Shown here: positions 20,226 to 22,628 of the stretch, piece after piece
Layout of the letters: each line of letters opens with the position of its first letter
How positions within the stretch are numbered: the first letter of the stretch is position 1
NCBI RefSeq assembly: GCF_902705855.1
Contig: NZ_CACSIJ010000011.1
Coordinates: 247,183 to 311,182, forward strand
Length of the DNA: 64,000 nucleotides
Origin: Zhongshania aliphaticivorans
GTDB taxonomy: Bacteria > Pseudomonadota > Gammaproteobacteria > Pseudomonadales > Spongiibacteraceae
Reading direction: 5' to 3'
Notes under the pieces: model-generated
Databases searched by the model: none
What the model saw: only the letters and a program-made list of their open reading frames with translations
Told to the model about the DNA's origin: nothing
Program-made: the position numbers and the translations under genes

Positions 20226-21272
<1,047 letters not shown>

Positions 21273-21274
21273 TA

Positions 21275-21310
21275 ATGATTCGCCCCGCGGAGGGAGGACG
21301 CAGCAATTAA
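21275..21310 (+). other. Possible 11-codon leader ORF coupled to mreC
   Basis: ATG 21275 opens MIRPAEGGRSN and stops at TAA 21308, which overlaps the proposed mreC ATT codon. The ATG itself lies 2 nt after the mreB stop. Ribosomes ending here would finish exactly on the mreC start, which could help a weak AUU start. It may equally be chance. Confidence 0.3.
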
Positions 21311-22139
21311 ACCGGTATTCGCCAATGAATCGTCTGTAGGTGGTCGGCTGCTGATTTTAGGTGGCGCTGCACTGGTGTTGATATTGATTGGGCAGCGCCT
21401 TGAATTCATGGCGCCGTTGCGAACGCAATTGTCAGTTGTTGCCGCCCCATTTTATTGGGTTGTTGATATTCCAAGCCGTATGACGGATCAGTTTAAAGGC
21501 TCTTGGAATAGTCGGAGCGAATTGCTGGCCGAAAACGAGAGACTGCGTTCGGAGTCTCTTATTCTTAATGCCAAACTTCAAAAATACATTGAGCTACGTG
21601 CAGAGAACGTACGTCTTCGTGAGTTGATGAACTCTGGAGAGCGGGTGAATGACTCCGTTCTTGTGGCCGAGGTAATTGCGGTCGCGTCGGATCCTAATCG
21701 TCACCAGCTCTTGGTAGACAAGGGGAGTCGAGACGGTGCTTTTTTGGGGCAGTCCGTTATCGATGCGAACGGCTTACTCGGTCAAATTACAGACGTTGGC
21801 GTCTTGCAAAGCCGCGTATTGCTTATTACCGACAGCGCTCATGCACTTCCAGTTCGGGTTAGTCGAAATGGTTTGCGAGCGATAGCAGAAGGCACTGGCC
21901 TGATTGACGAGCTGGCGTTGACGCATGTTGCCGCCACGACCGATATCCAAGTGGGTGACCTGTTGGTTAGCTCTGGGCTTGGTGGCAGATTCCCGAGCGG
22001 TTATCCGGTGGGCGAAGTCGTCGAAGTGTCGATAGACCCCGGCAAACCGTTTGCCGAGGTTCGTGCCCGTCCAATGGCTCAGCTCGATCGCAGCCGCAAC
22101 GTCTTACTGGTTTTCAGTGAACAGAAGATTGAGGAGTAG
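21306..22139 (+). CDS. mreC: Cell-shape protein MreC, apparent AUU start
   Basis: 277 aa if read from ATT 21306: IKPVFANESSVGGRLLILGG then ALVLILIG, which lines up with the family N-terminus (M-K-P-x-F, short cytoplasmic tail, one membrane helix). GGAGG (21293-21297) sits 8 nt before the ATT. The frame is closed by TGA 21276, and from there to CTG 21348 there is no ATG, GTG or TTG. The first GTG (21375) falls inside the membrane helix and would destroy it. Downstream are a coiled coil (about 65-105) and the MreC beta domains. MreC is the periplasmic scaffold of the elongasome. Confidence 0.9.
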   Translation: MKPVFANESSVGGRLLILGGAALVLILIGQRLEFMAPLRTQLSVVAAPFYWVVDIPSRMTDQFKGSWNSRSELLAENERLRSESLILNAKLQKYIELRAENVRLRELMNSGERVNDSVLVAEVIAVASDPNRHQLLVDKGSRDGAFLGQSVIDANGLLGQITDVGVLQSRVLLITDSAHALPVRVSRNGLRAIAEGTGLIDELALTHVAATTDIQVGDLLVSSGLGGRFPSGYPVGEVVEVSIDPGKPFAEVRARPMAQLDRSRNVLLVFSEQKIEE

Positions 22140-22142
22140 CGC

Positions 22143-22628
22143 GTGGATTCGCATGCGCACGGTCTTTGGTTTGTTGTAGTCACAATCTTTGTCGCTTTAA
22201 TTCTAAGTATCTCCCCTCTTGATGGAGGTATTGCCTGGGCTAGGCCTGATTGTTTATTGCTAATCCTAGTTTATTGGTTGTTGATGCTGCCAGAGCGAGT
22301 CGGCGTAATTATTTGCTGGAGCTGCGGCATATTGCTGGATATTTTACAGGGTGCCGTTTTGGGGCAAAATGCCTTCGCGCTCGCTGTTATTGCCTATATT
22401 ATTCAAGTGTCTTACCAGCGTTTGCGGATGTTTAGCATTGTAAAACAGGCCGCGTTTGTATTCTTACTCGAACTATTCCATATATTGGTTGATCAATGGG
22501 CGCAAAACATTAACGGTGTTGCGCAAACCCATTGGCTCGTTTTTCTCCCCGCCTTAACGACAGGTCTACTTTGGTTGTTAGTTCGGCCGATAGTGGCTTG
22601 GCTACAGCGTTTGTTCGTGGTTTTCTAA
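22143..22628 (+). CDS. mreD: Rod-shape protein MreD
   Basis: 161 aa, GTG start with GAGGAG 6 nt upstream and 3 nt after the mreC stop. About five membrane helices, with IAWARPDCLLLILVYWLLML and GAVLGQNAFALAVIAYIIQ as family blocks. Inner-membrane partner of MreB and MreC. The maf gene follows after 2 nt. Confidence 0.93.
   Translation: MDSHAHGLWFVVVTIFVALILSISPLDGGIAWARPDCLLLILVYWLLMLPERVGVIICWSCGILLDILQGAVLGQNAFALAVIAYIIQVSYQRLRMFSIVKQAAFVFLLELFHILVDQWAQNINGVAQTHWLVFLPALTTGLLWLLVRPIVAWLQRLFVVF

Follow-up and report, generated by a model that had tools for sequence, protein, structure and literature searches.

A conserved, predicted AUU start codon, probably offset by a strong Shine-Dalgarno sequence, in the cell-shape gene mreC of Zhongshania, and predicted AUU-type mreC starts in many other Gammaproteobacteria

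The window (the whole stretch of 64,000 nucleotides of Zhongshania aliphaticivorans that was analyzed) contains the genes mreB, mreC, and mreD, one behind the other on the plus strand. In the following, AUH denotes AUU, AUC, or AUA (ATT, ATC, or ATA in the DNA), a canonical codon is ATG, GTG, or TTG, and SD is the Shine-Dalgarno sequence, the strength of which is given as duplex energy. The features of the locus are:

20235–21272, plus strand: mreB, with an ATG start and an ordinary SD (−4.0 kcal/mol); 70.9% DNA identity to E. coli mreB
21276–21278, plus strand: in-frame stop TGA that closes the mreC frame upstream, with nine codons from there to the ATT
21289–21298, plus strand: SD of mreC, GGAGGGAGGA, strong; best duplex −10.4 kcal/mol
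21306–21308, plus strand: predicted mreC initiation codon AUU; ATT in 17 of 17 other genomes of the genus, and ATT, ATC, or ATA in 137 of 226 genomes of the class
21306–22139, plus strand: mreC coding sequence, 277 amino acids; Pfam PF04085 at 3.5e-40; aligned with E. coli MreC (7eft) residue 1 to residue 1
22143–22628, plus strand: mreD, with a GTG start and an SD within the 3′ end of mreC; name taken from its place in the operon, which matches that of E. coli

The stop codon of mreB is TAA 21270–21272. That mreC starts at AUU had been proposed in the first-pass annotation, on the grounds that neither ATG, GTG, nor TTG is available between the in-frame TGA and the membrane helix of the protein. 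Reading the window confirmed this absence: the first such codon after TGA 21276–21278 is GTG 21375, which is codon +23 and already lies inside the hydrophobic membrane helix; a CTG is present at 21348. Also confirmed were the ATT at 21306–21308, the GGAGG (21293–21297) placed 8 nt upstream of it, and a reading frame that opens with I-K-P-V-F. In the first-pass annotation, this N-terminus had been matched to the M-K-P-x-F start of the family; the first residue of annotated E. coli MreC falls at the same place in the alignment. The product of the gene is MreC: full-length E. coli MreC (7eft) matches it with an E value of 1.4e-63 over residues 1–271, the PF04085 domain is present, and mreB lies upstream, the neighboring mreD being assigned by position only. 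The closest named locus is that of Zhongshania marina (97% identity over MreC); a locus of this species, L031, has ATT. Both strands together contain 6,497 ATT, ATC, or ATA triplets in the window, and only 2 of them, the ATT of mreC itself counted, are preceded by an SD of −10.4 kcal/mol or stronger; the combination of ATT 21306 with its SD is thus more than chance. The three mre genes of the window differ in their start codons (ATG for mreB, AUU for mreC, and GUG for mreD). The GTG of mreD (22143–22145) has a strong SD of its own (−8.3 kcal/mol), which sits in the last codons of mreC.

In a search of relatives, mreC was found in 56 of 57 genomes (own genome included), and the 55 other genomes containing it were all read. 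The codon at the position of the window's ATT was ATT in 30, ATC in 12, and ATA in 2 of these, ATG in 6, GTG in 2, and TTG in 1; it was not callable in the remaining 2. The alignment of related genomes, which had been suggested as a check on the initial reading, strongly supported the AUU start: ATT was kept in all 17 other genomes of the genus, and the three remaining genomes of the same family had ATC (two) or ATT (one). Across the 18 members of the genus (own genome included), the ATT was invariant at all three bases. Third-base agreement at the codons behind it was 16/18 at codon 2, 18/18 at codon 3, 15/18 at codon 4, and 13/18 at codon 5, and the gap upstream of mreC varied over much of its length.

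The comparison extends to the class. In the class draw, a match was present in 338 of 370 genomes, 147 of which were read besides those already contained in the relatives draw; 70 of 80 re-searched genomes were read. These class genomes were chosen by score and by hand. Combined with the relatives and with part of a phylum draw, they gave 226 distinct genomes of the class, not a random sample, in which the aligned mreC codon was AUH in 137 (ATT 67, ATC 52, ATA 18), canonical in 50 (ATG 40, GTG 6, TTG 4), and not callable in 39. Named loci are excluded from this count; they stem from a scan with the peptide pattern IKPVFANE, which includes the start and biases these loci toward isoleucine. Among the 23 class genomes that were new from the phylum draw, ATG was as common as AUH (10 AUH, 11 ATG, and 2 not callable). 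Sorted into 129 family groups, which combine code names with NCBI names so that one family may be counted twice, 89 contained AUH only, 36 canonical codons only, and 4 both; AUH thus occurs in 93 of 129. The scope of the first-pass annotation, which had treated the AUU start as a rarity of one genome, was therefore too small, and the trait is widespread. In six Pseudomonas-like genomes (family code f21; named from protein sequence), the codon was ATC (five) or ATT (one), and in three of the six only three codons separate the stop from the mreC start. The start is ATG in E. coli and in three loci (L234, L235, and L237) whose N-terminus resembles the E. coli one. Throughout the resolved loci of the class, the aligned codon varies only among ATT, ATC, and ATA and ATG, GTG, and TTG; such switching between AUH and the canonical codons is what a start site should show.

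Canonical codons are scarce around the AUH codons. In 119 of 138 AUH loci, none was present back to the in-frame stop, and in 107 there was none through codon +9 either. The other 31 of the 138 contain a canonical codon either upstream or within codons +1 to +9; for a few of them (L189, L202, and L215), the assignment is probably wrong. The stop is no more than three codons upstream in 33 of 152 AUH loci, and none of these stretches contains a canonical codon. In two loci of one family (L091 and L092), ATA GCC CCG precedes GCC AAG CCC just upstream of the aligned start, so that translation may begin at ATA there and the N-terminus may be longer. In the 20 loci from outside the class, the column contained 3 AUH, 12 canonical, and 5 other codons, in an alignment that is not trusted because the N-terminus aligns poorly.

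The strength of the SD was compared between the two start classes in 204 resolved loci (152 AUH and 52 canonical), comprising 189 coded loci, 14 named loci, and E. coli. Unassigned codons, starts less than 20 nt from a locus end, and proteins shorter than 200 amino acids after the start had been dropped; in one AUH row (L157), the frame runs off the end of the locus. The median SD of mreC was −7.15 kcal/mol for AUH versus −2.85 kcal/mol for canonical starts, and an SD of −5 kcal/mol or stronger was present in 137 of 152 AUH versus 14 of 52 canonical loci. In the set used for the position scan, this strength was reached by 126 of 138 AUH loci, and SD energy as a function of position was strongest at the place of the AUH codon, to within ∼3 nt. 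On the MreC tree, at least 27 changes of start class are counted. For 27 independent pairs, drawn from the full set of branches of a FastTree tree built from MreC itself, the median SD difference was −4.0 kcal/mol (200 pairings; Wilcoxon p with a median of 0.0004 and a maximum of 0.0034); restricted to supported branches, the comparison comprised 7 pairs and had no power (sign test, median p 0.5). The SD of mreB, measurable in 95 of the 204 loci with only ATG, GTG, and TTG tried as mreB starts, served for comparison within loci: in 80 AUH loci, the medians were −3.8 kcal/mol for mreB and −7.35 kcal/mol for mreC, and in 15 canonical loci −3.6 and −3.3 kcal/mol, respectively. Since the SD of mreB shows no shift, the strong SD tracks AUH-started mreC and not the genomes. 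At positions −2/−1, pyrimidines (often GCC) preceded the start in 63 of 92 family representatives with AUH versus 16 of 40 with canonical codons (Fisher p 0.0035, kinship ignored); the window has GCA at 21303–21305. No structural control by an RNA hairpin was seen at the mreC start, where local folds were weaker than those of shuffled sequences (z 2.08 and 1.48).

The textbook AUU-start gene is infC. It was used as a positive control, and across the 18 genomes of the genus, it had ATT in 17 and ATC in 1, with SDs between −6.4 and −6.6 kcal/mol. Of the 30 infC loci read from 53 genomes with a match, the aligned codon was AUH in 25, and the other 5 did not align at this site. Both genes combine an AUU or AUC start with a strong SD, and in the own genome 8 nt separate GGAG(G) from ATT in both, the spacing reported by the duplex program being 6 for infC and 8 for mreC. 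The sequence AGCAATTAAAC around the start is common to the infC of the own genome (L148 1740–1750, minus strand) and mreC (window 21302–21312), which may be due to chance or to a common initiation context. The first-pass annotation had named infC and pcnB as the classic AUU genes; this holds for infC, which starts with AUU in the Zhongshania genome, but not for pcnB, for which an in-frame ATG is available there (L287 2868) and which is probably not AUU-started. In E. coli, the pcnB start is AUU, like that of mreC here, and, going by the title of Binns and Masters 2002 (as cited in passages of PMC1780047 and PMC9410913), limits expression. The AUU start of infC, which encodes IF3, is autoregulated by IF3, according to passages of PMC5472188 and PMC9410913. 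In contrast, mreC encodes a cell-shape protein and would be without such an autoregulatory loop; it also departs from the infC-type picture in having a canonical start in 50 of the 226 class genomes.

A second known system is sigR of Streptomyces, the conserved GTC start and extended ribosome-binding site of which are described, in passages of PMC5472188, as repressed by IF3 and as setting the ratio of the product to its partner; there, the non-canonical start is reported to be kept in 32 of 34 Streptomyces. A conserved non-canonical start with an extended binding site is common to sigR and mreC; in sigR it sets the ratio to an operon partner, as it may in mreC. However, the sigR case concerns GTC, is confined to one genus, and is experimental, whereas that of mreC concerns AUH, is class-wide, and is known from sequence. 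That suboptimal GUG and UUG starts go with a stronger SD is stated in passages of PMC5622118. The same source reports that suboptimal starts tend back to AUG (202 of 5,080 ancestral GUG starts in triples of close genomes); its compensation refers to GUG and UUG genome-wide, with a switch from AUG to AUU in 1 of 61,358 cases, whereas the mreC case is one of AUH. As to the protein, ∼180 copies of MreC per E. coli cell are quoted in passages of PMC7793260, which also state that MreC overexpression distorts the shape of E. coli and that the balance between MreC and MreD matters.

The reading that we consider quite probable is that mreC is started at AUU by initiator tRNA, at a lowered rate that is exposed to IF3 and compensated by the SD, yielding a modest and steady amount of MreC relative to MreB. 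The sequence comparisons support AUU 21306 as the start site, as well as the conservation of this site and the compensation by the SD; the lowered rate, the sensitivity to IF3, and the dose-setting role are suggested by analogy with infC, with sigR, and with the dose sensitivity of E. coli MreC. Initiator tRNA would start mreC at AUU 21306 and insert fMet there, while the strong SD would hold the 30S subunit on the mRNA. With codon positions 1 and 2 paired and position 3 mismatched, initiation would be slow and IF3-sensitive, and the strong SD would compensate for the near-cognate codon, such that the level of MreC would be modest and steady relative to that of MreB. By the same analogies, IF3 control of mreC is likely, and a limiting role of MreC with respect to MreB and MreD, together with IF3 dependence, would fit the SD compensation, the result for infC as positive control, and the dose sensitivity in E. 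coli. In lineages with a canonical start and weak SDs, we infer that a similar limit on MreC may be reached in another way.

Rather unlikely, but the strongest of the alternatives, is that the AUU start is real and nevertheless a tolerated relic, for which the strong SD makes up and in which no IF3 control or dose limit has been selected. In its favor, SD compensation by itself could restore output, and the start class has changed repeatedly on the MreC tree. However, AUG is only one base away, and evolution from suboptimal starts tends toward it (according to passages of PMC5622118), yet not one of the 17 other genomes of the genus has reverted; moreover, the SDs of the canonical-start lineages are weak, as if output were limited there by other means. 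Very improbable is that translation begins at another codon, either GTG 21375 further along or an upstream codon that has gone unrecognized, and that the isoleucine codon is internal. It is true that a list of open reading frames confined to ATG, GTG, and TTG yields GTG 21375, and that a canonical codon precedes the AUH codon in 19 of 138 loci; GTG 21375, however, lies 3′ of the conserved K-P-x-F and was rejected as the mreC start because it is inside the membrane helix. The AUH loci with a stop at most three codons upstream leave no canonical codon between, and the same column alternates with ATG, GTG, and TTG and aligns with the first residue of annotated E. coli MreC. Still less credible is that mreC is fed, by reinitiation or frameshifting, from a short open reading frame at 21275–21310 (ATG 21275; 11 codons; stop TAA 21308–21310). 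Its ATG directly follows the mreB stop and its own stop overlaps the ATT of mreC, but it was rejected because other members of the genus lack ATG 21275 (in L003 it is replaced by ATT, and in L012 to L016 the sequence differs); the gap between mreB and mreC, which spans −7 to 369 nt in 143 AUH loci, also speaks against it, and translational coupling as a general rule was rejected for the same reason. Finally, an artifact of sequencing or assembly, or an ATG that has mutated locally, would involve only a single base in one genome; this was rejected as practically negligible given the conservation of ATT in 17 of 17 other genomes of the genus and the fact that 93 of the 129 family groups contain AUH.

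In the open-access literature, none of the matches listed reports that mreC starts at a codon other than AUG (subscription journals being outside this coverage); two of them mention both mreC and a start codon, but do not deal with that of mreC. An open-access text search for N-terminal peptides of MreC yielded no papers. Near-cognate starts discriminated by IF3 are of a known kind; mreC as a member of this kind, and the breadth of its occurrence, look new. Non-canonical starts are usually encountered as isolated oddities, in one or two genes of a genome. In mreC, a core gene of cell shape, such a start extends over a large part of a class, and the ribosome-binding site varies inversely with the codon, being strong next to a weak codon and weak next to a strong one. 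A list of open reading frames that admits only ATG, GTG, and TTG mis-starts the MreC of the window and cuts into its membrane helix, and the same is to be expected at other AUH loci without a nearby canonical codon.

The combination of AUH with a usually strong SD hints at an old, built-in limit on the amount of MreC. Going further, a rather unlikely reading is that mreC and infC are members of an ancient group of genes with AUU-type starts in Gammaproteobacteria, in which the status of IF3 or of free 30S subunits would directly set the dosage of the Rod complex, with AUG and a weak SD replacing AUU in E. coli-like lineages. This raises the questions of whether AUU-type starts tie cell elongation to the status of IF3 and the ribosome, and why E. 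coli differs. If true, the AUU start of mreC would be a link, at the level of translation initiation, from the state of the ribosome (IF3 or free 30S) to the shape of the cell.
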